35,184 bases of DNA, from positions 1 to 35,184 of the forward strand of contig VBHP01000090.1 of assembly GCA_005881435.1 (NCBI GenBank). Reading direction: 5' to 3'. The DNA comes from Chloroflexota bacterium (GTDB taxonomy: Bacteria > Chloroflexota > Limnocylindria > P2-11E > CF-107). The position numbers and the translations under genes were made by a program. Positions 8,712 to 30,772 of this stretch are shown piece after piece; the stretch's first letter is position 1; every line of letters begins with the position of its first letter. The notes below the pieces were generated by a model. The model saw only the letters and a program-made list of their open reading frames with translations. It made no database searches and was not told the origin of the DNA.

Positions 8712-8798
8712 ACGCGGCACTCGGTATGCGACTACGGATTTGCGGCGGATATAGCTCGGACGCTCGGGCGGGCATCCGTGATGACATTAGGAGGGGAT

Positions 8799-10238
8799 AT
8801 GGACACAGGCACCGGCGAAAAAAACCGCACGCTCACCCGGCGCGAGCTGGTGCGCCGCAGCGCGTTGTTCGGCGGCGCGGTGGTCGTGGCGCCGATCATC
8901 GCGGCGTGCCAGCCCGGCGCGACTCCGGGCGCGAGCACGAGTCCGGGCGCGAGTGGTTCGACCGCGGCGCAGAAGGTCACCATCCGCGTCTGGGGCTACG
9001 GCCTCGACGATGCGCGCGCGAAGGCACGGCTCAACGTGTTCAAAGCCGCGAACCCGAACATCGACGTGCAGCCGGTCGGCGGCACGCTCAATACGCAGCA
9101 GTTACTGACGGCCGTCGCATCGGGCGACCCGCCGGAGGTCATCAACACCGACCGCACGCAGGTCGGCTCCTGGGCGGGCCGAAGCGCCATCGACCCGATC
9201 ACCGATCTGATCGACAAAGACAAGTTCGATATGAGTCAGTTCTATCCGGCCACGGTCGAGCAGGTGAAGTACAAGGGACAGACCTACGGCGTTCCGCACT
9301 TCGCGACCATCGACCTCTTCTGGATCAACAACAAGGTGCTCTCCGATGCCGGCACCGATCCCGCTTCGGTCGATCCGGGGAACTGGGACCAGCTGCAGTC
9401 GCTCGGCGAGAAGCTCGCGAAGGTGTCCGGGGGGAAGGTCACGCGCACGGGCTTCGACACCAAAATGCAGGACGGCCGCCTGTACTACTGGACTTGGGCC
9501 AACGGCGGCGACCTCTTCAGCTCGGACGGTTCGAAGGCCCAGTTCACCGACGCGAAGGCCGTGGAGGCGTTGACCTGGGCCCGCGACGCGGTCAAGAAGC
9601 AGGGCGGGGAGAAAGCACGCGCCGCGTTCTCGCAGACCCAGGACTTCTTCTCGCCGAACAACCCGTTCCTCATCGGGCAGACGGCGATGACGATCTTCGA
9701 GCAATGGCTGCTCGGCGTGCTCGCCGACCCGGGTCCGAACTTCGCGTTCACCGTGCTGCCGCCGCGCAAGCGGAACTCCAAGGATCCGCTCACGACGGTC
9801 ACCGGCGGCGCGTTCGCGATCCCGAAGGGCGTCAAGGCCGACAAGCGGCTCGCAGCCTGGGAGTTCATCAAGGGCATGGTCTCGACCGACGCCTGGATCG
9901 CCGGCCAGAAGGCCACGTTCATGGACAAGCAGTCCAAGAACCAGAAGTACACGCCGACGATCACCGGCAACATCAAGGCCGACCAGGAAGACATGAACAC
10001 GGTCTACAAGTCCATCGGTCCCTCCTACGACGCGGCCATCAAGACCTGGCAGACCGCGCTGAACGCCGGGAAGTATCCGTACTCCGGCCCGGTCGCTCAG
10101 CAGATCAGCGACCTGGTCACGGCCAACGTGAACGACGCGTTGCAGGAAGCGAAGCAGCCGGCGGACGCGCTGAAGAAACTGAACGACGACGCGCAGAAGG
10201 CCATCGACGATTACGCCAAGGGGCCTGGGAACAAGTAG
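8799..10238 (+). CDS. ABC transporter sugar-binding lipoprotein
   Basis: AGGAGG SD. N-term LTRRELVRRSALFGGAVVVAPIIAACQPG (Tat-like twin Arg and lipobox IAAC), then family-1 extracellular solute-binding protein features. Confidence 0.9.
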   Translation: MDTGTGEKNRTLTRRELVRRSALFGGAVVVAPIIAACQPGATPGASTSPGASGSTAAQKVTIRVWGYGLDDARAKARLNVFKAANPNIDVQPVGGTLNTQQLLTAVASGDPPEVINTDRTQVGSWAGRSAIDPITDLIDKDKFDMSQFYPATVEQVKYKGQTYGVPHFATIDLFWINNKVLSDAGTDPASVDPGNWDQLQSLGEKLAKVSGGKVTRTGFDTKMQDGRLYYWTWANGGDLFSSDGSKAQFTDAKAVEALTWARDAVKKQGGEKARAAFSQTQDFFSPNNPFLIGQTAMTIFEQWLLGVLADPGPNFAFTVLPPRKRNSKDPLTTVTGGAFAIPKGVKADKRLAAWEFIKGMVSTDAWIAGQKATFMDKQSKNQKYTPTITGNIKADQEDMNTVYKSIGPSYDAAIKTWQTALNAGKYPYSGPVAQQISDLVTANVNDALQEAKQPADALKKLNDDAQKAIDDYAKGPGNK

Positions 10239-10270
10239 CTGGCATGTAAGTAGCTGACGCGAGGGAGGCG

Positions 10271-11182
10271 ATGCGGCGGCGCTTTCGGCTGAAGGAAGAA
10301 CAGGTGGCGGGACTCCTCTTCGTGAGTCCCTTCATCGTCGGATTCCTCATCTTCAGCGCCGGTCCTTACATCGCCTCCCTGTATCTCAGCCTCACGACCT
10401 ACGACGTGCTGAACCCGCCGAACTTCGTCGGCCTGCAGAACTACATCGATCTGGCGTCAGACGAGACATTCGGCAAGGCGCTGTACAACACGCTGTACTT
10501 CGTCGTCTTCCACGGACCGACGGCGATCGCCATGGCGTTGATCCTCGCGCTCCTGCTCAATGCGAAGGTCCGCGGGGTCTCGATCTGGCGCACGATCTAT
10601 TACCTGCCGCAGGTCACGCCGGCGGTCGCGCTCGGCGTGTTGTGGCTGCGGATCCTGTCCCCCAACAACGGTCTGCTGAACAGCATCCTCGCCGGCGTCG
10701 GTATCCAGGGCCCGGCCTGGACCGTCGACGCCGATTGGGTGAAACCCTCGCTCATCCTGATCCGGGTCTTCGTCGTCGGGACCTGGATGATCACGTTCCT
10801 CGCGGCCCTGCAAGACGTTCCACAAGAGCTGTACGAGGCCGCCTCCATCGACGGAGCGAACGCCTGGCAGCGCTTCCGGAACGTGACCCTTCCGATGATC
10901 TCCCGCGTGATCTTCTTCGCGGTCATCGCCATCACGATCTTCTCCATGAACGTCTTCGATATCGCGTACTTCATGTTCCCGCCGCAGGTCTTCGGCGGTC
11001 AGCTCGGGCCGCAGGACAGCGCGCTCTTCTACATGGTCTATCTGTTCCAGCAGGCGTTCTCGTACTTCCATATGGGCTACGCCGCCGCACTGGCGTGGAT
11101 CCTGTTCGCGATCACGCTGGCGATCACGCTGATACAGCTGCGGTTGTCGCGGTACTTCGTCTACGCGGAGACGAGCAAGTGA
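10271..11182 (+). CDS. ABC transporter permease, sugar type (MalF-like)
   Basis: Six-TM permease with EAASIDGANAWQRFRNVTLPMISRVIFF, the EAA loop signature. Directly follows the SBP. Confidence 0.92.
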   Translation: MRRRFRLKEEQVAGLLFVSPFIVGFLIFSAGPYIASLYLSLTTYDVLNPPNFVGLQNYIDLASDETFGKALYNTLYFVVFHGPTAIAMALILALLLNAKVRGVSIWRTIYYLPQVTPAVALGVLWLRILSPNNGLLNSILAGVGIQGPAWTVDADWVKPSLILIRVFVVGTWMITFLAALQDVPQELYEAASIDGANAWQRFRNVTLPMISRVIFFAVIAITIFSMNVFDIAYFMFPPQVFGGQLGPQDSALFYMVYLFQQAFSYFHMGYAAALAWILFAITLAITLIQLRLSRYFVYAETSK

Positions 11183-12120
11183 CGACGGCCGCGAAGGGCG
11201 AGCGTCGGCAGAAGGCGTTCGAGCGCAGCACCGCATTCCTGGAGGGACGCGGGCTGTTCTGGGTGGCCCAGCGCGCACTGATCTACGGCGCGCTGGTGTT
11301 CTTCGCGATCGTGTTCGTCTTCCCGTTCGTGTGGCTGCTGTCGAACTCGCTGAAGGATCCGCTGCACATCTTCGATGCAAACCTCATCCCGCAGCCGATC
11401 GTGTGGCAGAACTACGTCACGATCTTCCAGGAGACCGAGACGATGGGGACTCCGCTGATATCGATGATCCGGAACAGCGTCATCGTGTCCGTCCTGGGCG
11501 TCACGGCGGTGCTGATCTCGAGCAGCATGATCGGGTTCGCCCTGGCCAAACTGCGCTTCCCCGGCGCCAACGTCGTGTTCTTCCTGGTGCTGATGACGAT
11601 GATGCTGCCGGGCGAGGTGACCATCGTGCCGGTCTACCTGATCTGGCGGAAGCTGGCCGACCTGACCGGCGGTCTCATCGGTACCGGCACGCTGTTCCCG
11701 CTGTGGCTCGGGGGCCTCTTCGGTTCGTCCTTCTACATCTTCATGCTGCGGCAGTTCTTCCTCGGCATCCCGCAGGAGCTCATCGAAGGCGCACGCGTCG
11801 ACGGCGCGTCGTACCTGCGCATCTACTGGCAGATCATGCTGCCGCTGGTGCGGCCGGCGCTCCTCGCCGTCGCCGTGCTCGAGTTCCAGGCCAAGTGGAA
11901 CGACTTCATGGGTCCGCTGATCTACGTCTCGAACAAGCCGGACCTGTGGACCCTCCCGATCGGCCTGTTCCAGCTGAACCAGCACTTCGGCTTCGGCCAG
12001 TTCCGCTACGAGCTCATCTTCGCCGCCGCGGTGCTCATGCTCTTGCCGAGCGTGATCCTGTTCTTCCTGGCGCAGAAGCAGTTCATCAAGGGCCTCTCGG
12101 CCGGAGCGGTGAAGGGATAG
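11179..12120 (+). CDS. ABC transporter permease, sugar type (MalG-like)
   Basis: GTG start in a GTGA overlap with the previous permease. EGARVDGASYLRIYWQIMLPLVRPALLAVAVLEFQAKWNDF EAA loop. Confidence 0.92.
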   Translation: MTTAAKGERRQKAFERSTAFLEGRGLFWVAQRALIYGALVFFAIVFVFPFVWLLSNSLKDPLHIFDANLIPQPIVWQNYVTIFQETETMGTPLISMIRNSVIVSVLGVTAVLISSSMIGFALAKLRFPGANVVFFLVLMTMMLPGEVTIVPVYLIWRKLADLTGGLIGTGTLFPLWLGGLFGSSFYIFMLRQFFLGIPQELIEGARVDGASYLRIYWQIMLPLVRPALLAVAVLEFQAKWNDFMGPLIYVSNKPDLWTLPIGLFQLNQHFGFGQFRYELIFAAAVLMLLPSVILFFLAQKQFIKGLSAGAVKG

Positions 12121-13190
12121 CCAGGACCCGCGCGGGCATCGTCGGTGCGGGTCAGGTCTCGCCGTACTACCTGTCCTACCTCGCGAGGAGCGACGACGTC
12201 GAGCTTGCCGCGATCGCCGACCGCGACCTCGCACGCGCGCGCGAGCGGGCCCAGGAGTATGGGATCGCGCGCGTGGTCACCGTCGACGAGCTCGTCGCCG
12301 ACGACGCGATCGACTGCGTGCTGAACCTCACGCCGGCGCAGGCCCATGCCGAGCTGACCGGCCGCGCGCTGGACGCGGGCAAGCACGTGTGGAGCGAGAA
12401 GCCGCCCGCGGTCACGCTGCCCGAAGGACGCGAGCTGGCCGCGCGTGCCGCACGCAACGGCCTGCTGCTGTCGTGCGCGCCGGACACGTTCCTCGGCGCG
12501 TCGTTCCAGACGGCGCGGCGCCTCGTCGACGAGGGCGCGATCGGCGCGGTGGTGGGCGCCTCGTGCTCGTTCGTGACGCCGGGCAGCGAGCTGTGGCACC
12601 ACAATCCCGAGATCCTGTTCGGCCCCGGCGCGGGTCCGATCTACGACGAGGGCGTGTACTTCCTGACGGCGCTGGTCGCGCTCCTCGGTCCGATCAGCGC
12701 GGTCCAGGCCCAGGCCGCCACTATCAGAAAGGAGCGGACGATCGCGACCGGCCCGCGAGCGGGCGAACGTTTCGACTCGGAGATGCCGACGCACTACGTC
12801 GCGACGCTCGCCTTCGCCGGCGGCGCGCTGGCGACGATGACCATGAGCTTCGAGGTCCGCACCACGACGCAGCCGCCGCTCGAGCTGTATGGGACGACCG
12901 GGTCGCTGCGTCTGCCGTTCCCCGGCTTCTACGACGGTCCGCTGCGCCTCGGCCGCGTGCACGACACGCCGTGGGAGGAGATCGCCGCGGAGGGACCGTT
13001 CCTCGGCCGCGTCCGCGGTCCGGGCCTCGAGGACCTGGCGCGCGCGATCGGAGAACGGCGCGAGCCGCGCTGCTCGGCCGCTCTCGCCCTGCACGTGCTC
13101 GAAACCATGGAGCTGCTCCATCGCTCGAGCGACTCGGGTCGACGGGAGCGTCTGACGACGACGGTGCGCCGACCGGAGCCGATGCGCTAA
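12117..13190 (+). CDS. Gfo/Idh/MocA-family oxidoreductase (apparent ATA start)
   Basis: (I)ARTRAGIVGAGQVSPYYLSYLARSDDVELAAIADRD...GKHVWSEKPPAVTLPEGRELAARAARNGLLLSCAPDTF: N-terminal Rossmann motif and EKP motif. No ATG/GTG/TTG is available upstream of the Rossmann strand within the reading frame's plausible start zone. Confidence 0.88.
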   Translation: MARTRAGIVGAGQVSPYYLSYLARSDDVELAAIADRDLARARERAQEYGIARVVTVDELVADDAIDCVLNLTPAQAHAELTGRALDAGKHVWSEKPPAVTLPEGRELAARAARNGLLLSCAPDTFLGASFQTARRLVDEGAIGAVVGASCSFVTPGSELWHHNPEILFGPGAGPIYDEGVYFLTALVALLGPISAVQAQAATIRKERTIATGPRAGERFDSEMPTHYVATLAFAGGALATMTMSFEVRTTTQPPLELYGTTGSLRLPFPGFYDGPLRLGRVHDTPWEEIAAEGPFLGRVRGPGLEDLARAIGERREPRCSAALALHVLETMELLHRSSDSGRRERLTTTVRRPEPMR

Positions 13191-13834
13191 GCATCGAGGC
13201 CGTTGCGGAAGGCGTACGCGACGGCTTGGGTGCGGTCGCGAAGTCCGAGCTTGTCGAAGATGTTGTGCAGGTGCCGTTTCACGGTCGCCTCGCTGATGAA
13301 GAGCTCGCGACCGATCTCGGCGTTGTTCTGACCGCGCGCGGCGAGGCGAAGCACCTCGAGCTCTCGTGCGGTGAGCACGTTCGCGACACGACGCGGCCGC
13401 CGCCGACCTTCCTCGACCGCAGCTGCGAGCCGTCCCTGTACGCGGGGATCGAAGGCCGCGTCTCCGCCGCCGACCGCGGCGATGGCGCGCGCGACCTCGG
13501 TCACGTTCGCATCCTTCGTCAGGTAGCCCCGCGCTCCCGCCTCGATGGCGCTGAAGACGTGCTCGTCATCCTCGTACGCGGTCAACGCGATCACCCGCGC
13601 GCCCGGACACGCCGCCCGAAGCCGGCGCGTCGCTTCGACGCCGCCGATACCGGGCATCACCAGATCCATGGCGACGACATCCGGCTGAAGCCGCGCGGCA
13701 ACCTGCACCGCCTCTTCGCCGCTGGCGGCGACGCCGACGACGTCGACGTCGGCGAGCGAGGACAGCAGCGCCGCGAACGCATCACGGACCAGGCGCTGAT
13801 CGTCGACGACAAGGACGCGCATGCGCGCGGTCAC
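13187..13834 (-). CDS. NarL/FixJ-type LuxR response regulator
   Basis: [20 protein letters not shown]...[20 protein letters not shown]...[50 protein letters not shown]-type receiver plus HTH. Confidence 0.95.
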   Translation of the reverse strand: [215 protein letters not shown]

Positions 13835-14967
13835 CGCGTCGGGAGCGTGAGACGCACAGTGAAGCCGTCACCGGTGGCGTTCGTGTCGAGGTCGCCTCCG
13901 AGCAGGCTCGCGCGCTCGCGCATTCCCTCCAGTCCGTGGCCATTCGAATCGCGGCGCTCGCGCTCGAGCGGCCGACCGTGGTTTTCGACGAGGAGCTCGA
14001 CTTCACCGGGCGTGAAACGCAGGTCGACGTCGACGCGTCGCGAGATCGTGTGTCTGCGCACGTTGGTCAGCGCTTCTTGTGCCACGCGATAGATCGCAGC
14101 CTGTGTCTCCGACGGCAGCGCCGCGGAGCCTTCCGCCACGCTCAGCACGTACGGCGTGCCGGTCTGCCGCTCGAAGTCGTGCAGCAGCCGCGGCAGCAGC
14201 GCGAGGGCGGGTGTGGATTCTCCGCGCAGCGTCGCGACGGCATCGCCGACTTCGCTCAGTCCCTGGCGAGCCAGGCGCTGCGCGTCCTCGATCAGCGCGG
14301 TCTGCTGCAGATCTGAGCTGGAGCCGCTGCGCGCACGTTCCAGCTGTAAAACGAGCGCCGACAGCGTGTCCGCGAGGATGTCGTGGATTTCGCGCGCAAT
14401 GCGCGCACGCTCCTGCAGCGCTGCGCTTCGCTCACGCTCGGAGCGGATCGATTCAACGAGCACGAGCAGCTGCTCGGCCTGAGCCTTGGCCTGCTGCGCG
14501 AACCGCACGTACCGGCCGAGCAGAAAGGCGAGGATCCAGAACGCCGCGATGAAGAGGGCATGCACAGCCGGGACGGCTGCGCCAAGCGACGCGATCAGCG
14601 CGACGCTCGCGACGGCGGCGACGAGCACGGCGGTAGCGACGGCCGGGCGGCGCGGCAGGGTCAACCCCAGCGCGAGGATGACCGCCGTGATGCCCGCACT
14701 GCCCGACAGGAAGTGTCCGAGCGCGATGAGTCCGATGGAGCTCGCCGCGACCGCGACGCCGGCCCACCAGGCAAAGCGGAATGTCGCGACGAGCCAGCCC
14801 ACCGCGAGCACCGCGGTGCAGATGGCAACCGCCGCCAGACGCGACGGATCCGGACTCTCGAGCTCGCGGCCGGCGATCACCGCGAACGCGGTGAGCAGCG
14901 CAACGACGCTGAACCCGCGCCAACGCGCGCCGGTGATCACATTCACCGTTGTTGTGCGTGCCTGCAT
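13831..14967 (-). CDS. NarL-type sensor histidine kinase
   Basis: N-terminal TM segments, then ERARIAREIHDILADTLSALVLQLERA (HisKA_3) and EALTNVRRHT...GHGLEGMRERASLLGG (HATPase). GTGA overlap with the response regulator. Confidence 0.93.
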   Translation of the reverse strand: MQARTTTVNVITGARWRGFSVVALLTAFAVIAGRELESPDPSRLAAVAICTAVLAVGWLVATFRFAWWAGVAVAASSIGLIALGHFLSGSAGITAVILALGLTLPRRPAVATAVLVAAVASVALIASLGAAVPAVHALFIAAFWILAFLLGRYVRFAQQAKAQAEQLLVLVESIRSERERSAALQERARIAREIHDILADTLSALVLQLERARSGSSSDLQQTALIEDAQRLARQGLSEVGDAVATLRGESTPALALLPRLLHDFERQTGTPYVLSVAEGSAALPSETQAAIYRVAQEALTNVRRHTISRRVDVDLRFTPGEVELLVENHGRPLERERRDSNGHGLEGMRERASLLGGDLDTNATGDGFTVRLTLPTR

Positions 14968-15113
14968 TTCGTGGACCGCTCCAGTGCGCGTGGAGTTGTA
15001 GGTCCGGGCGTCGAGGAATGCAACCACCGGACGATGCCGCCGGGCGATCGGAGCAATACGTTCACGCGCGGCGAACCAGCGCGCGATGCGACAGGCGTCG
15101 CGAAGGAGGGTTC

Positions 15114-15662
15114 ATGCGTAAGCGCGCGATCTGTTCGATCCTCGCCGCAGGCGTCCTGCTGCTGGCGCAGGCGACGGCCGCCATGGCCACCCAACCGACG
15201 GACGCAGCGGTGACACGATCGATGCCGGCGAGCCTCTGCGCCCTGCTGTTGCTGACGCATCCAGGGCACACGAGCGCGGATTGCGTCACGCACCACAGCG
15301 TCCGCATCGAGCGCGAACCCGGCTCGAAAGTCGGATTCGCCTCGCCGCAAGCGGCCACTCTCGCCTTCGCTTACTGCGTCACGATCACCGGCTCGATGTG
15401 GAACATCGGCTGGTCCTCGACGGCGTCGCAGCGGTTCTGCGTGACACCGAATGTGGTCGTTTCAGCGATTCCCGGGACCACCCAGTGCCGCTCGAGCTGG
15501 TGGGTGCAGACCACGTGGTGCGGGGTCGGTGTTGGCGGCGGGTGGTACGCCGACGGTGGCGACAACGTGTACGCGCCGACATCCGGTCGGACGTACTTGC
15601 GCGTCTGGATGAACGCCGCCGGTGCCTGGGGCGTGAAGTGCTGGGGCTATGCGTTCTGCTGA
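15114..15662 (+). CDS. secreted Cys/Trp-rich protein A, unknown family
   Basis: AAGGAGG SD. Signal peptide MRKRAICSILAAGVLLLAQATAAMA. Mature part has 8 Cys and ends KCWGYAFC. Paralogue of the next ORF. Confidence 0.85.
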   Translation: MRKRAICSILAAGVLLLAQATAAMATQPTDAAVTRSMPASLCALLLLTHPGHTSADCVTHHSVRIEREPGSKVGFASPQAATLAFAYCVTITGSMWNIGWSSTASQRFCVTPNVVVSAIPGTTQCRSSWWVQTTWCGVGVGGGWYADGGDNVYAPTSGRTYLRVWMNAAGAWGVKCWGYAFC

Positions 15663-15681
15663 TGGAGGTTTCAAAAGGAAG

Positions 15682-16314
15682 ATGCTCACGAAAGCGTTCT
15701 GCGCGATCGCGACCACTGTCGTGTTGCTGCTCTCGACGGCTTCGGCGGCGCTCGCTGCGCCGGATCTGGCGACGTTGACTCGTGCGCCCGCGGCAACGCG
15801 GGAGATCCTGACGCTCGCGCCCGGCGAGACCGAGGCCTCGACCACGATCCGCATGCGCCCAGACGTCTGCGCGGCGTTCCTGCGCGTGTTTCCCGGTCAC
15901 TCCGACGTCGACTGCGTCACGCGTTTCAGGCTCACGGTCAGCGGACTGCCCACGCGCTCGATCAGGGGGGTCGCCGCGCCCATGCCGATGAACGTCGCCT
16001 CCTACTGGTGCGGCATCACGGTCGAGGGCCTGATGGCGAACGTCGGCTGGAACGCGCATGTCTCGCAGACCTTCTGCATCTGGCCGGGTGTGTCGGTGTA
16101 CCCGAAACCCTACGGCACACAGTGCGGGAACTTCTACGGGTTCGGCGCGACGGTGACCGTCACGTGGTGCGGTGGTGGACGCAGCGGCTGGACCGCCGAC
16201 GGTGGAGAAAACGTGACGATCTCGATGTGGCGATTCAACTACGGCGCCGGTCAGCGAGTGTCGCTGTCGGCTGACTGGCGCACCGGGCAGTTTTGCTGGA
16301 ATGCCTTCTGCTGA
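15682..16314 (+). CDS. secreted Cys/Trp-rich protein B, unknown family, paralogue of protein A
   Basis: Signal peptide MLTKAFCAIATTVVLLLSTASAALA. Shares PGH.S.DCVT, N(I/V)GW, GT.QC, TWCG, GW.ADGG(D/E)NV and a C-terminal CW..AFC with protein A. 19-bp gap. Confidence 0.85.
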   Translation: MLTKAFCAIATTVVLLLSTASAALAAPDLATLTRAPAATREILTLAPGETEASTTIRMRPDVCAAFLRVFPGHSDVDCVTRFRLTVSGLPTRSIRGVAAPMPMNVASYWCGITVEGLMANVGWNAHVSQTFCIWPGVSVYPKPYGTQCGNFYGFGATVTVTWCGGGRSGWTADGGENVTISMWRFNYGAGQRVSLSADWRTGQFCWNAFC

Positions 16315-16326
16315 TCGAGCTTCGCT

Positions 16327-18906
16327 CTAGCGACGCCGCTTACGGGGTGGCGCCGGCGTGTTCGCCGGCTGCGGCACAGAACGGACCGACACGCCGCAGA
16401 TCGGCAGGCCCAGGCGATAGTTCTTGTACGCCTGCGCCCACTTCATCACGTCCGGCAGCCACTCCGGGCGTTCGGCCGCGGCGTTCACGCAGCCGCGGCC
16501 GAAGAAGGCCGAATCGTCCGTCTTCGGCTCGGTGCCGGCGATGTACTTCTCGACGGTGCGCCATGAGGACGGACAGTTCGGTCCCGGCAGTAGACCCGAG
16601 CCCACGCCGCCGGTCAGGCCCGGACGCACGCAGACCGTCTTCTCGATGATGCCGTCAGGACGCGCATACCAGGTCTCGGGAAGCTGCAGCTGGCCGATGG
16701 CCTCCTTCATGAACTCGCGCCACAGCACACCCGGGCCCATCGCCGAGGAGATGCCGTACATCTGCGAGTTGTCGGAGTTGCCCATCCATACCGCCGTCAG
16801 CAGCTGCGGCACGTACCCCACGGCCAGCACGTCGCGCAGGTTGTCGGTCGTGCCGGTCTTGAGCGCCGCGGTCCGGCCGATGTTGGTCCAGGAGCCGAAG
16901 ATCGAGCTCGTGTTCGGATCGGTGATGTCCTTCAGCATGTCCGTCATCAGCCACGACAGCTGCGGCGAGATCGCCTGTGTCCCCTCGGGCTGCGACCAGT
17001 CGCGCACCACGTTGCCGTCCTTGTCCTCGATGCGTGAGATCAGCGTCGGCTCGATACGTACGCCGCCATCGGCGACGACCTGATACGCGCCGGCGAGCTC
17101 GCGCAGCGTCATTCCGCCAGCGCCGATGCCGAAGGGCAGACCGAGCTGAGACGCGTCCCACTCCCGATCGACGCCGAGCTGGCGCGCGGTCTGGACGATC
17201 TCGTCGACGCCGACCAGCGACGTGATCTTGACCGCGGGAACGTTCAGCGATTCGCGGATCGCCTGGCGGATCGTGATCGGACCGTTCTCCGGACCGGCGC
17301 CGGATCCGCTCGGCGAGGCATTCTGCGGGCGGTACTGCGGCTGACCAGCGGCGGCGAAGTTCGTCGACACGTCCCACAGCACGGTCGACGGCGTGTAGCC
17401 CTTGCGCAGCGCGGTCAGATAGGTGAAGAGCTTGAACGTCGATCCGACCTGCCGCTCGCCGAGGCCGGCGACGTCGAACTGACCGCGGACGCGCGGATCC
17501 TGATCGTCGTACTTCACGCTGCCGACGTAGGCGAGGATGTAGCCGTTCCGCGGATCCATCGCGATCAGCGCGGCGTTGTGCACGTTCGCCGACGCGAGCG
17601 CCGCGACGCGATCCTTGACCTGTCGCTCGGCGATGGCCTGCAGCTGCGGATCGATCGTCGTGTACACGCGATAGCCCCCGACGTACGCCGCGCGCTCGCT
17701 GCCGAAGACTTCGGCCAGCTGATCGCGGACGCGGAACACGACGTGTGGCAGCGACAGCGGGGTCTCGGCCGCGTGCACCAGGATCGGTTCGTCAGCGGCC
17801 CGTTCGGCCTCGTCGCGACTGACGAATCCTGCGGCCAACATCGCCGCCAGGACTTCGCTCCGCCGGGCCCGCGCTCCGTCGGGGTTCGTCACCGGGTCGT
17901 AGATCGACGGCCGCTGCGGCAAGCCCGCGAGCAGCGCGGCCTGACCGAGCGTCAGCTGCCGCAGGTCGGTCACGTCGAAATAGGTCTTCGCCGCGGTCTT
18001 CACGCCGTACGAGCGATTCCCGTAATAGACCTGATCCAGGTACAGCTCCAGGATCCGCGCCTTGGGGTAGCGCATCGTGACGCGGATGGCGATGAGCGCC
18101 TCGTTCAGCTTGCGCGCGAGGGTCTGATCGTCGCCGGTGAGACGCGCTTTGACGAGCTGCTGCGTGATCGTCGATCCGCCCTGCGCGACGTAGCCCTCGC
18201 GCCAGTTCGTGACCAACGCACGGAAGATGCCGCCCGGATCGACGCCGAAGTTGGTCCAGAAGCTGCGGTCCTCGATCGCGATCGTCGCCTGCTGCAGGAT
18301 CAGCGGGACGTCAGCGAGCGCGGCGTGCTCGCGGTGCTCCTCTTCGAAGGTGTAGAGCAGCTTGCCATCGCGGTCGTACACGAAGGTCGAATACGGAACC
18401 TCCGCGGTCTCCAGCTGCGACGGGTCGGGCAGCGCGGCCCACACCGCGGTGGCGCCGAGCCATGCGCCGCCGAACGCGATCGCGGCGAGGACCATCCACA
18501 GGCGCGGTCGTGGGATGCGGCGCGGCCGCCGCTCTTGTCCGACGCGCCAGGCGGTCGTCGTCAGCGCGACGGCGCGATCGCGGACGCGGCGAGACCAGCG
18601 CGCCAGCTCCGCGTCGGCTCGGCGCGCCGCCGGGATCGCGCTGCGCTCGCCCCAGCTGTCGATCGCGCGCGACGCCGCGTCGTAGCGGCGCGGCACCTCG
18701 GCGCGGATAGAGATCGCGGCGCGCAGCGCGGCCGTGGCGGCGCGAGGCGCGTCTCGGCGCAGCGACGATGCCGCCGCGACCAGCGCCGTCGCGATCAGCC
18801 ACAGCAGGGCGGCGATGCGCTCGGCCGTCGCGAGCAATCGCGGCAGCGCCACGTCGAGGAGGAAGGTTCGGGCGGCCCGGCGCCCGGTCGGCAGCAGAAC
18901 GCCCAC
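16327..18906 (-). CDS. class A penicillin-binding protein (PBP1A-type, GT51 plus transpeptidase)
   Basis: AIEDRSFWTNFGVDPGGIFRALVTN...GGSTITQQLVK (GT51), RQVGSTFKLFTYL (SxxK), ESLNVPAVK (SxN), LKTGTTDNLRD (KTG). Confidence 0.93.
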   Translation of the reverse strand: MGVLLPTGRRAARTFLLDVALPRLLATAERIAALLWLIATALVAAASSLRRDAPRAATAALRAAISIRAEVPRRYDAASRAIDSWGERSAIPAARRADAELARWSRRVRDRAVALTTTAWRVGQERRPRRIPRPRLWMVLAAIAFGGAWLGATAVWAALPDPSQLETAEVPYSTFVYDRDGKLLYTFEEEHREHAALADVPLILQQATIAIEDRSFWTNFGVDPGGIFRALVTNWREGYVAQGGSTITQQLVKARLTGDDQTLARKLNEALIAIRVTMRYPKARILELYLDQVYYGNRSYGVKTAAKTYFDVTDLRQLTLGQAALLAGLPQRPSIYDPVTNPDGARARRSEVLAAMLAAGFVSRDEAERAADEPILVHAAETPLSLPHVVFRVRDQLAEVFGSERAAYVGGYRVYTTIDPQLQAIAERQVKDRVAALASANVHNAALIAMDPRNGYILAYVGSVKYDDQDPRVRGQFDVAGLGERQVGSTFKLFTYLTALRKGYTPSTVLWDVSTNFAAAGQPQYRPQNASPSGSGAGPENGPITIRQAIRESLNVPAVKITSLVGVDEIVQTARQLGVDREWDASQLGLPFGIGAGGMTLRELAGAYQVVADGGVRIEPTLISRIEDKDGNVVRDWSQPEGTQAISPQLSWLMTDMLKDITDPNTSSIFGSWTNIGRTAALKTGTTDNLRDVLAVGYVPQLLTAVWMGNSDNSQMYGISSAMGPGVLWREFMKEAIGQLQLPETWYARPDGIIEKTVCVRPGLTGGVGSGLLPGPNCPSSWRTVEKYIAGTEPKTDDSAFFGRGCVNAAAERPEWLPDVMKWAQAYKNYRLGLPICGVSVRSVPQPANTPAPPRKRRR

Positions 18907-19027: not shown

Positions 19028-20107
19028 TCAGCGGTCGACTGCGAGACGCGCTGCGGCGCGGCCGAGCCACACCGCGGCGGCCGCCAGCGGCGTACCGAGC
19101 AGCGCAGCTGCGATCGGCCACGCCGAGAGCCAGGGGCGTGCGGCCGCGGCGTAGTAATAGGTCAGCACCAGACCGCGGAACTGCGGATCCGCCAGCGAGC
19201 CGGCCGAGGGTGGCGGCGGCGTGAACAGCAACAGCCGAGCGCCCTCGGCGAGGACGAACGCCGCGGCGAACGCCGCTCCGATCGCCCACATGCTTCGCGT
19301 GCGGGCGCGAACGAGGTCCATCGCCAGGGCACCGGCGACGACCAGCGGCGGGAACGCCGGCGGCAGCCATCCCAGCACGCGCAGCGCGACGAAGGTCAGG
19401 AGCGCGAAAGCGGTGTACGTGAGCGCGGCCACCGTCGCTGCAAACTTCTGTTGTTGCAGCTCGATGGTGAACGCGAGCGCGAACGGCACGATCGCGCAGA
19501 CCACCAGCGGGAAGAACAACGCTTCGCGCGACCAGCCCATCATGTAGTAGAAGTTCATCCCGAAGATCAGCGTCGAGACCACACCGCTGGCGAAGAACAC
19601 CACCAGCGCGTCACGCAGTCGCGCCGAGAGCACGAACACGTTCGTCGCCGCGGCGACCGTCCATCCGAGGTAGATGAGGATGCCGCCGCCGTAGATCGCA
19701 AAGAGGTGCGGCGGGCTCCACATGTCCACATCCCGACCGAAGGTGCGATGCCAGAACTCGTCGAACGGAGCCGCGGCGATGACGGCGAGCGCGCCGAGGC
19801 CGACGATGGCCATGCCGCGCTCGACGCGCAGCGGGCCGACGGCGAACTCGCGAGCGCGGAGCGGTCGTCCGCGCATGGCCGTGGCGGTCGCGAACAGCGC
19901 CGCGACGCCCGAGAGCATCGTCCCGGCGTAGATCCCGAGGTGCGGTGTGGTCCAGAAGGTATCGCGACCGATCAGGCGATGCCACGAGACGTCCCAGGCC
20001 GAACCTGCCCAGCCGAGCGCCAGCCCGAGGAGCCCGATGAGCAGCGGCGCCAACTCCAGCGCGGGGGCGGTGGAGAACATGGAGCGCCGGAGCGCCAGCA
20101 CGGCCAT
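19028..20107 (-). CDS. polytopic membrane protein with duplicated His motif
   Basis: Multiple TM stretches. Start at ATG 20107 (MAVLALRRSMFS...). Contains WDVSWHRLIGRDTFWTTPHLGIYAG and FDEFWHRTFGRDVDMWSPPHLFAIYGG. Confidence 0.75.
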   Translation of the reverse strand: MAVLALRRSMFSTAPALELAPLLIGLLGLALGWAGSAWDVSWHRLIGRDTFWTTPHLGIYAGTMLSGVAALFATATAMRGRPLRAREFAVGPLRVERGMAIVGLGALAVIAAAPFDEFWHRTFGRDVDMWSPPHLFAIYGGGILIYLGWTVAAATNVFVLSARLRDALVVFFASGVVSTLIFGMNFYYMMGWSREALFFPLVVCAIVPFALAFTIELQQQKFAATVAALTYTAFALLTFVALRVLGWLPPAFPPLVVAGALAMDLVRARTRSMWAIGAAFAAAFVLAEGARLLLFTPPPPSAGSLADPQFRGLVLTYYYAAAARPWLSAWPIAAALLGTPLAAAAVWLGRAAARLAVDR

Positions 20108-20131
20108 GGCCACCGATTCTAGAGTTGCAGG

Positions 20132-21568
20132 ATGAGCGCAGTGGTCACGACGGAGCTCGAGGTCGTCGCGCGATCGCGAGCGGCGGCGATGCCGCGTCTC
20201 GCGCGCCGGGTCGCGTGGGCGCTCTGGCTCGTTGCGGCGCTGCTGGCCGTCGTGTCGATCATTCTGGTGATCGGGAGTCTCTCGCTCGGGATCGCTCAGG
20301 CGGACTACGTTCGCGGATCGGGGGCCCTGCTCGCCCTTGGCTACGCCACGATCGGAGCGCGGATCGCGGCGCGCCATCCGCGAAATGCGGTGGGCTGGCT
20401 GATCATCGCGACCGGCATCGCCTTTGGCGTCATCGGCCTGGCGCAGGACTATATCTTCGTCGCGTCGGTCGGCGGGAATTCCATCCGTCTCTCGGAAGGC
20501 ATCGTCCGGGCCCTCTGGATCTTCAACTTCATCCCGTCATTGACCGGCAGCCTGTTCCTGCTTCTCTTTCCGGATGGGCGCTTCGTTTCGCGCGCGTGGT
20601 CGGCCCTGGCCGCGTTCGCTGTCGCGTCCAACGGCATCGGACTGACGCTCGCGCTGGTGACGCCGCTCCCGACGCTCGCCGACAGCTCCAACCCGATCAG
20701 GGACGCCGGCGTGGCGTTCTCCGCGTCAGGGCTCTTCGAACTTGCGAATGTGGGCAGCACCGTCGCGCTCGCGTTGTGCGCCGGCGCACTGCTGTTCCGG
20801 TTGCTCATCGCGCACGGCGACGAGCGGCAGCAGCTCAAGTGGGTCGCCGCGGCCGGTGTCTTCGCGGTCGGGGCGAATCTGCTGGCGACGATCGCACCGG
20901 GGGATCTGAACTTCCTCGGCTACCTCAACCTGCTTGGCATCCTCTCTTTCCCCGTTGCTGCCGGGATCGCCATGCAGCGGTATCGCCTCTACGACATCGA
21001 CACGATCCTCAATCGGACGCTCGTCTACGTCGTGGTGACCGGGCTGTTGGCGGGCTTGACCGCGGCTCTGCTGGGATCGATCCAGCGGGTCTTCATCGCG
21101 GTCACCGGCCAGAGCTCCGAGGCCGCCATCGTTATCACCACGCTGATCCTGGTCGCGGTCTTCACGCCGCTGCGGGAGCTCGTGCAACGGGCCATCGACG
21201 TGCGCCTGAAGACGACGGCGGCCGGACTCAAAGGCCTGCGGGCCTTCACCGACGAGGTCCGGGACTTCGCGCACTTCAACGATCGCCGCCGTCTCATCCT
21301 GCGGCTGCTGGCCGAGAGCGCGGCATCGCTCGACGCTAGCGGCGGCGCGGCCGAGATCCGCGAACCGAGCGGCCACTGGTCCAGCCATCAGGTCGGACAC
21401 TGGACCGGCGACGGCCAGGTCACGGCGACGATCAACGCTCCCGACGGGATCGCGGCTCGAGTGCGCCTGGGAGCGCGCCGCGACGGAGACGCGTATAACG
21501 AACGGCAGCTGGCGGCCCTGCGCGGCGCGGCGGGCGCCGTCGCCGATGTTCTCGCGCATACGCAATAA
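20132..21568 (+). CDS. sensor-like multi-TM membrane protein lacking a kinase domain
   Basis: N-terminal TM region plus RYRLYDIDTILNRTLVYVVVTGLLAGL, typical of Chloroflexota/Actinobacteria sensor kinases. The C-terminus ends without H-box or HATPase motifs. Confidence 0.75.
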   Translation: MSAVVTTELEVVARSRAAAMPRLARRVAWALWLVAALLAVVSIILVIGSLSLGIAQADYVRGSGALLALGYATIGARIAARHPRNAVGWLIIATGIAFGVIGLAQDYIFVASVGGNSIRLSEGIVRALWIFNFIPSLTGSLFLLLFPDGRFVSRAWSALAAFAVASNGIGLTLALVTPLPTLADSSNPIRDAGVAFSASGLFELANVGSTVALALCAGALLFRLLIAHGDERQQLKWVAAAGVFAVGANLLATIAPGDLNFLGYLNLLGILSFPVAAGIAMQRYRLYDIDTILNRTLVYVVVTGLLAGLTAALLGSIQRVFIAVTGQSSEAAIVITTLILVAVFTPLRELVQRAIDVRLKTTAAGLKGLRAFTDEVRDFAHFNDRRRLILRLLAESAASLDASGGAAEIREPSGHWSSHQVGHWTGDGQVTATINAPDGIAARVRLGARRDGDAYNERQLAALRGAAGAVADVLAHTQ

Positions 21569-22167: not shown

Positions 22168-24024
22168 CTAATTTACGTCCAGCAGCGCCTCCGCGACTTG
22201 GCCGAAGCGCCGTCCATCGATCGTGACGTCGACAGCAATCCGGGCGCGCCGCACGTTTCCGCCGCGTGGCACGATCGTGGCGCGCACCCGCCGCGTGCCG
22301 CCTGGCGGCAGAGGGACGTCCGCGAGCACCGACGCCGAGCGCCAGCCGCGCGGCAGCACCAGCCGAAGGCGCGCCACGGCCGGCCGCCGGAAGGGGTTCC
22401 GGACCTCGATGCCGACGTCGTGCGGCTCGCCGGCGGTGGCCCTGGAGCGGTAGGGACGGATCCACGCCAGCGCCCCTTCGGCGTCGAGATCGACCTCGTC
22501 TAGCGGCAGCAGCTCGCGATGCAGCCGCGCCAGTTCCCTACCCTTCACCCGAAGCTCCTCCAGGAAGGCGTCGTCCACCCACACCGGGGGCGTGTGCCCG
22601 AAGAGCATCAGGTCGGGATGGAGGCGCGCGTACAGCGCCGACGAATCCACGTAGTCGTCGAGGCGGAACCGATTGCGGTAGACGTAGTTGGAGAGCCGCG
22701 GCGGGCCCCCCTGCTGGTCGCCGACGACCAGCACGCGCTTGCCGTCGACGGCGAAGCTGATCGCGACGGCGTGCAGCGTGTGTCCCGGCAGCTGATACGG
22801 CGTCAGCTCGTACTCCTCACACCGCACCGGCTGCTCCAGCGCCAGGGTGCGGTCGACCCGGATCGGGTCGTACCACATGCAGGGCAGGTCGTAGCGCTCG
22901 GGGTCGCCGAGCGGCTCGGCCACGATCGGCGCGGACCAGATCTCGGTTCCCTCGGTCTCGCGCAGCAGGTTGAATCCGGCGACGTGGTCGTCGTGATAGT
23001 GCGTCGGGATGGCCACGTCGATCTCGGTCACGCCGAAATCGCGTTTCAGCGCCGGAACGGTGTAGAGCCACGGCCGGCGCGAGGCGCGGTCCGAGCCGTC
23101 GGCTGCGCCGAAGGCGAAGTCGTAGCCGAAGTCGAAGAGGAGTGCCTTGCCGCTCTCGGACAGCAGCACGTGGGAGTTCGCGACAGAGGTCCGGTTCGCC
23201 AGCAGATGCGGGGTGAGGGCCTCGTACGGGCGTGCGCGGAGTTCCAGGAGGCGCGGGTTGTGCTCGCGGAGCGTGATCAGCGCCTGCAGCCGGGCGACGG
23301 TCAGGTCGATGGCCGCGATCGGATCGGCGATCGGCTCGCCGTGCGAGGGATAGACCGCGGCGGGCCCGCGGTCGCGGAGGTCCAGCAGCGACAGCACGCT
23401 CCCCGCGAGCCCCTCACCACCGTTGTAGGTCCACTGCGTCGCGGCGAGCGACCACACTTTGCCGGCCGCGTAGATGAGATCGCCGGTGAAGGCGACGCGA
23501 TTGCCGTCGATCTCCGCCAGCAGAGACACCGAACCCGTCGTGTGTCCGGGCGTCGGGAGCACGAAGAAGCGATACGCGCCCGAACGCAGCTCGCGGTACT
23601 CGGGCAGCACGCCGGCGACCTCGACCGACTCCAGCAGGGAGAAACGATCTTCGCGGACGTTGTAGTTGGCCGCGATCTCGCGCGCCTGCCAGTGCGCCTC
23701 GACCTCGCCGAAGAGATCGCTCTCGACTGGCGGCACCCACACCCGCGCTCCGATGGCGTTGGCCCTGGCCAGACCCTGACCCTGGTCGCGATGGTGGTGC
23801 GTCATCACCACGTCGCCGACCTTCGCGATGCCGAGCGACGGAAGCTCCGGGAGCACGTCTCCGTCGCCGAAATCGACCAGCGTCGCGCGCGTTCCGCTTT
23901 TGACGACGTAGACGTTGCAGGTGTCGGCGAACGACCACAGGTTGGTGGAGATGCGACGAAGGCGGCTCGAGACTGGCTGTGCGGCTGGCGCACGGACAAT
24001 GCTGGCTCTGGCCGCTCGACTCAC
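22168..24024 (-). CDS. tandem double metallo-beta-lactamase-fold protein with C-terminal beta-sandwich-like domain
   Basis: Domain 1: VVMTHHHRDQGQG, LPTPGHTTGSVS, FTGDLIY, VYPSHGE. Domain 2: AIPTHYHDDHVAGFN, YQLPGHTLHAVA, LVVGDQQ, LFGHTPP. The tail GIEVRNPFRRPAVARLRLVLPRGWRSASVLADVPLPPGGTRRVRATIVP resembles NEW3/Ig-like. Confidence 0.85.
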   Translation of the reverse strand: MSRAARASIVRAPAAQPVSSRLRRISTNLWSFADTCNVYVVKSGTRATLVDFGDGDVLPELPSLGIAKVGDVVMTHHHRDQGQGLARANAIGARVWVPPVESDLFGEVEAHWQAREIAANYNVREDRFSLLESVEVAGVLPEYRELRSGAYRFFVLPTPGHTTGSVSLLAEIDGNRVAFTGDLIYAAGKVWSLAATQWTYNGGEGLAGSVLSLLDLRDRGPAAVYPSHGEPIADPIAAIDLTVARLQALITLREHNPRLLELRARPYEALTPHLLANRTSVANSHVLLSESGKALLFDFGYDFAFGAADGSDRASRRPWLYTVPALKRDFGVTEIDVAIPTHYHDDHVAGFNLLRETEGTEIWSAPIVAEPLGDPERYDLPCMWYDPIRVDRTLALEQPVRCEEYELTPYQLPGHTLHAVAISFAVDGKRVLVVGDQQGGPPRLSNYVYRNRFRLDDYVDSSALYARLHPDLMLFGHTPPVWVDDAFLEELRVKGRELARLHRELLPLDEVDLDAEGALAWIRPYRSRATAGEPHDVGIEVRNPFRRPAVARLRLVLPRGWRSASVLADVPLPPGGTRRVRATIVPRGGNVRRARIAVDVTIDGRRFGQVAEALLDVN

Positions 24025-24074: not shown

Positions 24075-26102
24075 CTATGTCAGCTCGACGACCGTGCCGT
24101 TCTTGCGACCGAGGCGCAGGTGCAGCTCGTTGCCCGCCGGCGTGCTGGTGGCGCCGGTGCGAAGGTCTCGCGCCTCGATCGCCGCGTCTGCGAGCAAGAC
24201 CGGCTCGTCGAGATCGGCGTCAGTGGTGTTGACCGCGATGAGGAAACGCTTGTCGCCGCGTCGGAACAGCGCGGTCGACACGCCCGGTGTCCGCGCTCGG
24301 CTCGCGATCGGCACGCCGAGCCACTGCTGCACCGCGACCACGAGCTGCGGCGTCGGCGACACGCCGAGCACGACCACGCTGCCCTTGCCTCGTGTCTCGC
24401 GGTACCCGACGACGTGCCGCTCGCCCTTGGTCAGAGTGGCGTGCAGGTGCAGGCCCTCCTGTTGCTGCGGCCAGGGCTCGCACTCCGCGTGCAGCGCCGC
24501 GCCCGGCACGTCGGCGTACGAGGCGAAGGGCGTCGCCGGCAGCGGCAGGCGCCGTTCGCCGAGCAGGACCACGACGCGGCGGAGGTTGCCGGAGCCGAGG
24601 ACGGCGTCCGGCGGCCGGAGCCCAAGCGGATTCGCCGCGCGAAGCTGCTCGTCGAAGCGAGGCAGCCGCTGCACGAAAACAAGCTGTCCGCCGGCCTCGA
24701 CATACGCCGCGAGGCGCTCCGCCGCCGCCCGCGACAGCCACTCGCCACCGGCGTAGAACAGCAGCGGCTTGGCGATCGCGCCGGTCTCCACGTCGCAGCA
24801 CTCGTGGTCGATGTCGGCCTGATGCAGCGCCGTCAGGACCGGGTGGTCCGGATCCAGTTTCGCGCCCTGCTCGACAACGTCGACGGTGACGGCCGTGTCG
24901 GTGATCTTCTCCAGGGACGGCACGTCGATCTCGCGGAAAAGCCGGATGATCTCGCCGAACGCCGGCGCGAGGTCCGGCCGGGCGCGGGCGACGCCGCTGA
25001 TCGGCGTGCCGTACCAGTTGTCGCGTTCGACGAGCATGTACCAGTTCCATCCGGCGATGCCGGCGACGAGCGCCGACAGCGACGACAGCGTGTAGTGGTT
25101 CGCGGTGTGAACGCCGGTCCAGTAATGCCACCCGTGCCAGATGCCGGCGCCGAATTCGGGGATGTAGGGCAGCTTCGAGTAGGTGCGGGTGAAGCGAAGA
25201 CGATCGAGGAAGCGTCGATGCTCTTCGGCGCCGGCGCGGAACTCCTGACTCGGATACAGGTCCGGACCGGCGAGATCGCTCGCCGTCTCCAGTGCGCGCC
25301 AGTCCTGCGCGCCGAAGCCGGAGTAGGCGTTGGCGTAGATCGGGACGTCGACGCCGAGCTGCCGCAGCGTCCTCACCGTCCACGACACGATGTCGGTGGC
25401 GTAGTGCTGCCGGAAACGAATGCCGTCGAGATAGCGCACGCGTTCGCCGCGATCGACGGAGACGGGCTCGAGCACCGCGCCGCGCGCGTCGGCGAAATCG
25501 CGATGTGAGGTACCCCAGGCGCCATTGAGCGCTTCGATCGAGCGGTAACGCTCGCGAAGAAAATCCTGGAACGGCCCGGGCTTGTCGAAGAGACCGAGCT
25601 CTCTGGCGTAGGCCTCGGTCCAGGCGTCGGGCTCGTTGTCGGCTTGGACCATGACGATCGGTCCGCCGTTCGTCGCCAGGAACGGTCGCGCCGCTCGCAG
25701 GACCGCCTCGAGCCAGCCGCGCGCGGCTTCTCGGAACTCGCTCGACGTGCGGTGATATTTCACCACGCGCTCGGGCACGCCGGAGTTGCGCCACTCGCTG
25801 TAGATGTACGGACCCGGTCGCAGGATGATCGCGAGCCGCATGTCCTTCACCAGCTGCAGAAACCCGACGAGGTCGCGCGAGGGATCACTGTCCCCCTTCA
25901 GGTCGAAGCGACCGGCTGCGAGCTCGTGATGGTCCCAGCACGCGTATGACGCGATAATCTCGAGGCCGAGATCCTTCGCGCGCGCCAGTGCGTCGCGCCA
26001 GTAGAGCTTCGGCGTACGCCAGTAATGGATCTCGCCGGAGAGCAGCGCGTACGAGCGCTCCCCCACCCAGATGCGGCGATCACGGATCTGAACGTCGGCT
26101 AT
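24075..26102 (-). CDS. GH35/GH42-like beta-galactosidase family protein (apparent ATA start; conventional GTG alternative at 26066)
   Basis: (I)ADVQIRDRRIWVGERSYALLSGEIHYWRTPKLYWRDALARAKDLGLEIIASYACWDHHE...LRPGPYIYSEWRNSGVP...VMVQADNEPDAW: GH35 N-terminal signature. Confidence 0.85.
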   Translation of the reverse strand: MADVQIRDRRIWVGERSYALLSGEIHYWRTPKLYWRDALARAKDLGLEIIASYACWDHHELAAGRFDLKGDSDPSRDLVGFLQLVKDMRLAIILRPGPYIYSEWRNSGVPERVVKYHRTSSEFREAARGWLEAVLRAARPFLATNGGPIVMVQADNEPDAWTEAYARELGLFDKPGPFQDFLRERYRSIEALNGAWGTSHRDFADARGAVLEPVSVDRGERVRYLDGIRFRQHYATDIVSWTVRTLRQLGVDVPIYANAYSGFGAQDWRALETASDLAGPDLYPSQEFRAGAEEHRRFLDRLRFTRTYSKLPYIPEFGAGIWHGWHYWTGVHTANHYTLSSLSALVAGIAGWNWYMLVERDNWYGTPISGVARARPDLAPAFGEIIRLFREIDVPSLEKITDTAVTVDVVEQGAKLDPDHPVLTALHQADIDHECCDVETGAIAKPLLFYAGGEWLSRAAAERLAAYVEAGGQLVFVQRLPRFDEQLRAANPLGLRPPDAVLGSGNLRRVVVLLGERRLPLPATPFASYADVPGAALHAECEPWPQQQEGLHLHATLTKGERHVVGYRETRGKGSVVVLGVSPTPQLVVAVQQWLGVPIASRARTPGVSTALFRRGDKRFLIAVNTTDADLDEPVLLADAAIEARDLRTGATSTPAGNELHLRLGRKNGTVVELT

Positions 26103-28609: not shown

Positions 28610-29823
28610 GCGATGGCGGGCTCGGCGCGTCGGAGCGCGACCCGCCACACCGTCGCCAGCGATGCCGCCAGCAGGACCGCGCTGAAGAGGAATGCCGCGC
28701 CCGGCAGCAGGTACGCGCGCAAATCCGCTACGGCCAGCGCGAATGTCTGCGTGAAGAGCAGCGGGGCGATGACGGCGGCAACGGCATGCAGGCTGCCGAA
28801 TGTGCCCTGCAGCCGGCCCTGCTCCGTCGCGGCTACGTGGCGTGTCGCCAATCCCATGAGCGACGGCGAGACCAGCCCGAAGAAGGACCACACCGGGATC
28901 CCGACCAGGAACAGCGATGTGTTCGGCGCGAGAGCGAAGATCAGCTGCGCCGAGATGCCGACCACGAGACCGACGACCAGCGCGCCGCGCTCACCGAGGC
29001 GTGCGACCGCGCGCCCGACCACCAGGCCCTGAACGACCATCGACGACACGCCGACCAGGGCGAGCGCGAGACCGACCGCGCGTTCATCCCAGGCGAAGCG
29101 GTACTGGGTGTAGAGGACGAAGGTCGCCGGCAGAGAGTCGTGGGCGACGTACGCGAAGAAGGCCGCGAGCGCGAGCGTCGACAGGCCCGGATGCGCACGC
29201 ACGAAGTGGAGTGCACCGATCGGATTCGCCGTCTGGAACTGGAACGCGGCCCGCCGCTCGCGCGGCAGCGACTCCGGAAGGATGAAGAAGCCGTAGGCGA
29301 AGTTCGCGAGGCTCAGCGCCGCGGCGGCCCAGAACGGCGCCCGCAGATCGATCGCTCCCAGTGCGCCACCGACAGCGGGCCCGACGATGAAGCCGACGCC
29401 GAATGCGACACCGAGCATGGCGAATCGTCCGGCGCGCTTCTCCGGCGGCGTCACGTCCGCGATGTAGGCGCCGGCCGCGGAGAAGCTCGATGAGGTGATG
29501 CCGGAGGCGAGTCGACCGATGAACAGCCACGCCAGGTTCGGCGCGAGCGCCATGACGATGTAATCGAGCCCCAGACCGAGATTCGACAGCAGGATCACCG
29601 GTCGACGGCCGAAGCGGTCCGAGAGCGCACCGAGCACCGGCTGGAAGAAGAACTGCATCACCGCCCAGGCCGCGGCGAACACGCCGAAGGCGGAGGCTCC
29701 GGCCGCGGCGTCGCCGCCCTCGAGTCGAACGATCAGCCCGGGGAAGACAGGCACGACGAGTCCGAACGCGAGCATGTCCAGGAGGACCGTGATGAAGACG
29801 AACGCGAAGGCCGCGCGGCTCAT
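28606..29823 (-). CDS. MFS transporter
   Basis: MSRAAFAFVFITVLLDMLAFGLVVPVFPGLI...GALSDRFGRRPVILLSNLGLGLDYIVMALAPNLAWLFIGRLASGITSSSFSAAGAYIADVTPPEKRAGRFAMLG: TetA/MFS loop 2-3 and motif C. Confidence 0.93.
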   Translation of the reverse strand: MSRAAFAFVFITVLLDMLAFGLVVPVFPGLIVRLEGGDAAAGASAFGVFAAAWAVMQFFFQPVLGALSDRFGRRPVILLSNLGLGLDYIVMALAPNLAWLFIGRLASGITSSSFSAAGAYIADVTPPEKRAGRFAMLGVAFGVGFIVGPAVGGALGAIDLRAPFWAAAALSLANFAYGFFILPESLPRERRAAFQFQTANPIGALHFVRAHPGLSTLALAAFFAYVAHDSLPATFVLYTQYRFAWDERAVGLALALVGVSSMVVQGLVVGRAVARLGERGALVVGLVVGISAQLIFALAPNTSLFLVGIPVWSFFGLVSPSLMGLATRHVAATEQGRLQGTFGSLHAVAAVIAPLLFTQTFALAVADLRAYLLPGAAFLFSAVLLAASLATVWRVALRRAEPAIA

Positions 29824-29830
29824 GCCGAGG

Positions 29831-30562
29831 TCAGGTGCGCAAGTAGAACGGCTTGAACCACGGATTGAAGTACACACCAAACTGCGCGCGCGCGTCGCGA
29901 AGCTTCGCGGTCGCGTCGAGGATCAGCATCGGACGCGAATGTCCGATCGCCAGAGCTGTCGGATCGAGCTCGATGAGCCGATCCAGCGAACGCCGCCAGT
30001 CCTTTGCATCGGAGCCGATGCGCTCGTGGAATCCGCCCCACACCGTATCGCCGGTGATGAGCACGCGCATGTCATCGAGGTCCAGCTGGAACGACGACGA
30101 ACCGGGCGTGTGCCCGGGCGTGTGCACCACACGCAGCTCCATGTCGCCGGCCGGCACGCGAAGGCCGTCGCGCAGCTCGCGGTCGACGCGCAGTTTCGGA
30201 AAAGCGCGGTCATAGAGGAACGCGGAGGTGCGCTCCGGATCGGCCGACTCCACGGCCTCGCGGTCGCCGGCGTGCAGCCAGAGCTCGGCGGCGCTCTCCT
30301 CGCGGAGACGCGCCATTCCCGAGAGATGGTCGAAGTGCCCGTGCGTGACGAGCACGCGGCGGATGTCGTGCGGGGTCACGCCGACGGACAGCAGGTTGCG
30401 CCGCAGCGCGTCGTACCCGTCGAGCGAGCCGCAATCGATGAGCACCGGCTCGCGGCCGGCGATGAGGTACGCATTCGCATCGAAGGGATGGCTGAGGCGA
30501 TCGCCGGACACCGCGTACAGCGGACCCGCGAGCCGGACCGCTCGTTTGCGCGGCACGCGCAC
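29831..30562 (-). CDS. MBL-fold metallo-hydrolase
   Basis: VTHGHFDHLSGMARL, HTPGHTPGSSSFQL, ITGDTVWGG, AIGHSRP. GTG start at 30562 or 30556 uncertain. Confidence 0.85.
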   Translation of the reverse strand: MRVPRKRAVRLAGPLYAVSGDRLSHPFDANAYLIAGREPVLIDCGSLDGYDALRRNLLSVGVTPHDIRRVLVTHGHFDHLSGMARLREESAAELWLHAGDREAVESADPERTSAFLYDRAFPKLRVDRELRDGLRVPAGDMELRVVHTPGHTPGSSSFQLDLDDMRVLITGDTVWGGFHERIGSDAKDWRRSLDRLIELDPTALAIGHSRPMLILDATAKLRDARAQFGVYFNPWFKPFYLRT

Positions 30563-30772
30563 GACCTTGGCGATCCGGGAGATGAGCCGTGAGTGAGTGA
30601 TCGTGTTGTCTACAGCACCATGGTCCCGCGCGGTGAGAAGCGATGGAAGATTTTCGTTGCGGGCACGTCTTTGTAACGGGACGCTTCCGCCGAGAGGTGC
30701 GCCGGACGGGCATCGGCACGTTCGTTCGCTCTCCGCTCTAACCTGCCGGGCCGGCGTTGGAGAATGCCTCAG

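Follow-up and report, generated by a model that had tools for sequence, protein, structure and literature searches.

The closest described counterparts of the two proteins presented here are the inhibitors of the Streptomyces subtilisin inhibitor type and secreted Cys-rich bacteriocins or antimicrobial proteins. Like the former, both proteins are small and probably exported and disulfide-stabilised, but searches of Pfam and the PDB gave no sequence match. Their number of Cys residues is twice that of the Streptomyces subtilisin inhibitor type. With the bacteriocins they share predicted export, a Cys-rich and basic composition and a tandem arrangement, while they are larger, lack an immunity gene and have no family match. 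Secreted Cys/Trp-rich proteins of unknown function are common in soil Actinomycetota, and most proteins secreted by uncultured soil Chloroflexota lack an annotation. The pair is a rare, uncharacterised secreted protein family, not a new kind of system. This family is defined by sequence and is missing from the reference libraries searched, and its motif set (eight Cys, PGH(S/T)xxDC, ADGG(D/E)NV) can be used for profile collections and for expression in structural work.

A tandem pair of paralogous genes

The window, i.e. the whole stretch of DNA analysed, is a complete contig (C25) of 35,184 bases from a 2.9 Mb assembly that is 92% complete. Two genes on its forward strand, ORF1 (15114-15662, 182 aa) and ORF2 (15682-16314, 210 aa), are separated by a gap of 19 bp, have a good ribosome-binding site each and form a small two-gene operon. 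A class A penicillin-binding protein gene (16327-18906, reverse strand) converges on the operon 12 bp past ORF2. Translation of ORF1 starts at GAAGGAGGGTTC-ATG, that of ORF2 at the ATG at 15682, which follows AAAGGAAG and opens a normal signal peptide. An alternative ORF2 start at 15649, taken from a mechanical ORF call, was rejected since it would make ORF2 overlap ORF1. The GC content of the codon positions (∼0.56/0.60/0.85, in a window of 68.6% GC) is the pattern of real coding sequence. Read by eye, both proteins begin with a typical Sec-type signal peptide that ends in AxA and has no lipobox: MRKRAICSILAAGVLLLAQATAAMA in ORF1 (15114-15188, forward strand), with predicted cleavage after AMA, and MLTKAFCAIATTVVLLLSTASAALA in ORF2 (15682-15756, forward strand). 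Both products thus appear to be exported and non-lipidated, with mature parts of about 157 and 185 aa. A ninth Cys in each protein sits inside the signal peptide, outside the mature part.

On sequence comparison ORF1 and ORF2 are clear paralogues, with 37% identity in BLASTP (E 1e-25, 85 bits). Their global alignment scores 214, compared to a mean of -42 for 1000 shuffles (sd 16, maximum 28; Z = 16), and pairs all eight mature Cys, while none of the shuffles gave more than 6 Cys–Cys matches. The original prediction of secreted tandem paralogues whose eight mature Cys align one to one is borne out by these data. Both mature parts contain exactly eight Cys, the last being the C-terminal residue, and are rich in Trp and Gly (9 Trp in ORF1 and 8 in ORF2). 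The Cys residues are located at positions 42, 57, 88, 109, 125, 136, 176, and 182 of ORF1 (spacings 14/30/20/15/10/39/5) and at positions 63, 78, 110, 132, 148, 163, 205, and 210 of ORF2 (spacings 14/31/21/15/14/41/4). A spacing of 12–15 aa had been given for the first two Cys; the PGH loop between them stands, but the spacing is exactly 14 in both proteins. This loop carries the motif that includes Cys2, PGHTSADC in ORF1 (15261-15284) and PGHSDVDC in ORF2 (15892-15915), and a second conserved motif, ADGGDNV in ORF1 (15549-15569) and ADGGENV in ORF2 (16195-16215), lies in the C-terminal half (all on the forward strand). The linkers between these elements have diverged. Retention of eight Cys in spite of linker divergence is characteristic of disulfide-braced folds, and the even number of fully conserved Cys in predicted exported proteins suggests four or fewer disulfides.

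A third family member and the extent of the family

A profile search of 400 genomes of the phylum identified only one true relative (G424, E 2.9e-38). This single-copy gene belongs to Candidatus Dormiibacterota bacterium Bin.020_Pasture, a metagenome-assembled genome from pasture soil (JAMXLM010000015.1; L008/L028:7908-8525), and its product (P0003) shares 39% identity with ORF2 along 183 aa (E 7e-36, 112 bits). Conservation of the Cys framework in an orthologue had been set as a test beforehand, and the homologue indeed has all eight mature Cys, behind a signal peptide read by eye. In all three proteins the eight mature Cys align, the first two enclose 14 residues (C1-x14-C2) and a Cys ends the chain; PGH(S/T)xxDC, TWC, ADGG(D/E)NV and a terminal CW...C are likewise common to them. 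The counterparts in the homologue are PGHSRADC, MWN, TWC, ADGGDNV and the terminal CWNAHC, and P, G, H, D and C of the PGH...DC motif are invariant in the three members. Some elements of the original prediction hold only in part. From the predicted GW.ADGG(D/E)NV block, ADGG(D/E)NV is common to all three members, but the preceding GW is missing from the third one (GTTADGG). The Gly of the predicted N(I/V)GW is not kept there either (NVFW). The predicted ending CW..AFC is retained as CW...C, while the spacing of the last two Cys differs, with 5 for ORF1 and 4 for ORF2. The mature homologue also differs in its pI, 5.9 compared to 8.5 for the window pair. An N-terminal stretch absent from ORF1 is common to the homologue and ORF2. 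Since the homologue is also closer to ORF2 than ORF1 is, either the duplication is old or ORF1 has diverged further than ORF2.

The two loci differ in their organisation. The homologue is one gene, while the window has a tandem pair, so copies are not always tandem. Nor is a position beside a divergent two-component system constant: a NarL-type system lies ∼3.7 kb from the homologue, and the other neighbours are not those of the window. Directly upstream of the homologue, on the same strand, is a gene whose translation reads as a large ATPase with a LuxR-type domain at its C-terminus (L028:5512-7785), a candidate regulator there.

None of the sequence searches placed the proteins in a catalogued family, as had been predicted. 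Pfam-A and NCBIfam gave no match above the curated cut-off (best E 0.21–1.4, unrelated families), PHROG and PADLOC no significant HMM match, and phmmer and hmmsearch against the PDB no significant match either. The best PDB hit (E 0.075) was an antibody scFv, and such scFv matches were judged to be compositional. No meaningful match to enzyme, toxin or defence families appeared at E up to 10, and a literature search returned nothing relevant to the pair. Structure prediction gives hints for the N-terminal half. AlphaFold reached a pLDDT of 34 for ORF1 alone and a mean of 44 with three sequences, which is too weak for a fold, with residues 11–40 at 63–71. In the latter model the N-terminal 46 residues form a strand, a helix over C1, the PGH..DC loop and a strand, followed by a hairpin (residues 61–72 and 77–86) with C3 and C4 on opposite arms. 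C3 and C4 may therefore be a cross-strand pair, and the model hints at C1–C2 and C3–C4 disulfides. The C-terminal half including ADGG(D/E)NV has no reliable modelled structure at this mean pLDDT of 44, and a Foldseek search of the PDB with the same model found no match at E <= 0.001.

The family looks real and, within Chloroflexota, very rare, as far as sequence searches can tell. The window's own genome (92% complete) has no further copy. Searches of the 28 remaining genomes of the order, where the window genome is the sole representative of its family, and of the rest of the class (177 genomes in total) gave no member either. The homologue is carried by one of ∼17 sampled genomes of the Dormibacteria genus concerned, and the remaining 109 of 110 Dormibacteria-class genomes yielded no further member. 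A further Chloroflexota class (47 genomes) as well as plasmids, phages and IMG/VR gave no member, and none beyond the Dormiibacterota gene came up when 84,980 species were scanned for the motifs. The larger searches of the phylum scored seven candidates per genome. Their weak profile matches (L009-L027) were short and partial, and the three that were read through (L009, L010, L012) contain stops and are attributed to chance. A DNA scan for ADGG(D/E)NV in 400 genomes identified the three true members as the only genuine carriers, as the encoding DNA in nine other genomes lay in frames that were unrelated or non-coding. Among the loci retrieved with a looser WC...GDN(V/F) pattern from the 110 Dormibacteria-class genomes, all but the known member were likewise unrelated frames.

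In the all-species scan a few short motifs had to match exactly. The Dormiibacterota gene escaped the first version, whose motifs came from the window pair alone, and was found by the second, which demonstrates how insensitive such scans are. Outside Chloroflexota, Actinomycetota chromosomes included, coverage consists of strict motif scans, and this is a weak test of other phyla; therefore, 'very rare' applies to Chloroflexota, taken in the GTDB sense since the sampled phylum includes the Dormiibacterota genome.

Proposed function and its regulation

The proteins are probably exported, disulfide-braced and mostly beta modules, acting by binding rather than by catalysis. As the most economical reading we propose, tentatively and with a probability of about 0.45, that the pair provides extracellular, non-catalytic binding modules under the control of a two-component system. 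The operon would yield two Sec-exported, non-lipidated proteins that fold outside the cytoplasm into compact beta-rich modules with up to four disulfides. These modules may bind at the cell surface or matrix, or to a polysaccharide or another soluble ligand. Signal peptides in all three members and the retention of all eight mature Cys across classes are in favour of a binding function. A binding module also fits better than an enzyme with a strict Cys and motif framework (an FPGH or HPGH loop within C1-x14-C2, C3 and C4 on a predicted hairpin, TWC...ADGG(D/E)NV and the terminal CW...C), divergent linkers and 8–9 Trp per protein. Against it, the conserved residues (H, D, D, N, T and R) would be compatible with an enzymatic role.

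The candidate regulator is encoded divergently from ORF1 and consists of a sensor histidine kinase (HisKA_3 and HATPase_c in Pfam; 13831-15027, reverse strand) and its partner, a NarL-type response regulator (Response_reg and GerE; 13187-13834, reverse strand). This system probably turns the operon on, from a presumed promoter region between the divergent genes (15028-15113). No sigma-70 consensus was found in this region, and its repeats are too weak for an operator. The best match of the kinase elsewhere in the order is only 32% identical. The two-component system is thus as lineage-specific as the pair, which is in favour of a regulatory link, and both may have arrived as a common lineage-specific insert. 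On the other hand, synteny with the system is not kept at the Dormiibacterota locus, and the kinase encoded there shows 32% identity to that of the window, which is ordinary family similarity. With different neighbours in addition, the linkage to the two-component system is suggestive only.

A remote relation to a larger known or uncatalogued family of secreted proteins from actinobacteria or Chloroflexota is quite possible and would be compatible with the other readings, including the proposed binding function. A profile built from three sequences is shallow, and motif scans are insensitive, so that distant relatives may have escaped. However, Pfam, NCBIfam and PHROGs gave nothing but noise even at E 10. 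Two query sequences that we composed for a wider actinobacterial secreted family also found nothing relevant: both gave noise in plasmids, and the second gave nothing relevant in the 47 genomes of one Chloroflexota class; we do not count these queries as evidence.

It is unlikely, but worth weighing, that the pair encodes secreted antagonistic effectors, similar to bacteriocins and directed against neighbouring soil bacteria, with duplication and linker divergence as the outcome of an arms race. The very patchy distribution (one carrier among ∼17 sampled genomes of the Dormibacteria genus, and no other in the order of the window) and the tandem diverged copies would suit this function, and regulation by a two-component system is plausible for it. 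However, the operon consists of the two paralogues only and is followed by the converging penicillin-binding protein gene, leaving no immunity gene candidate, and this counts against an effector. PADLOC and other toxin families gave no match, and the third member stands alone, among different neighbours.

Secreted inhibitors of proteases or glycosidases, which would function like the small disulfide-braced inhibitors of Streptomyces, are a more doubtful explanation. An inhibitor would agree with the size, the Cys framework, the predicted export and the variable linkers, but the proteins show no similarity to any Pfam inhibitor family or solved inhibitor, and their best-conserved segments do not resemble a reactive loop in any obvious way. 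To a new family with an unseen disulfide-rich extracellular fold, transferred horizontally across soil Chloroflexota classes and acting as an interbacterial or substrate-binding factor under two-component control, we assign a similarly small chance. If its fold were new or its role antagonistic, the pair would be of greater significance; currently it is one more rare, uncharacterised secreted family. Least probable are small secreted enzymes with an active site formed by His and Asp of PGH..DC and Asp and Asn of ADGG(D/E)NV: the invariance of H, D, D, N, T and R in three diverged members speaks for them, but is weak evidence over three sequences, no enzyme family matches, and His and Asp lie in a Cys-bounded loop of 14 residues where they are perhaps conserved for folding.

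Other genes of the window

The window looks like a glycan utilisation region. It encodes a GH38 alpha-mannosidase (3636-6380, forward strand), a second, C-terminal GH38 fragment at the contig end (33976-35037), a GH2 enzyme (26099-28891) and a GH35/42-like beta-galactosidase (24075-26066; the last three on the reverse strand). A sugar ABC transporter (8778-12120) and a Gfo/Idh oxidoreductase are also found farther out from the pair. The glycoside hydrolases and the sugar transporter fit an extracellular polysaccharide lifestyle and thereby the proposed binding function, but they are not specific to the pair, and most of the glycoside hydrolases are many kilobases away on other transcription units, which counts against the proposed function.

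The penicillin-binding protein of the window is 61% identical to a copy on contig C64 of the same genome, compared to ∼55% identity in relatives. That this second copy is its closest relative outside the window supports the assignment of the contig to this genome. C18 carries a third match, which is more distant and whose aligned stretch crosses two stops.

Two large proteins with a metallo-beta-lactamase domain (22168-24024, 618 aa, and 29831-32167, 778 aa, both on the reverse strand) are possibly ComEC/Rec2-like DNA-uptake proteins. Two long ORFs without a Pfam match overlap on opposite strands; the one at 19028-20377 (reverse strand) reads like a multi-pass membrane protein, and the one at 20132-21568 (forward strand) may be spurious.
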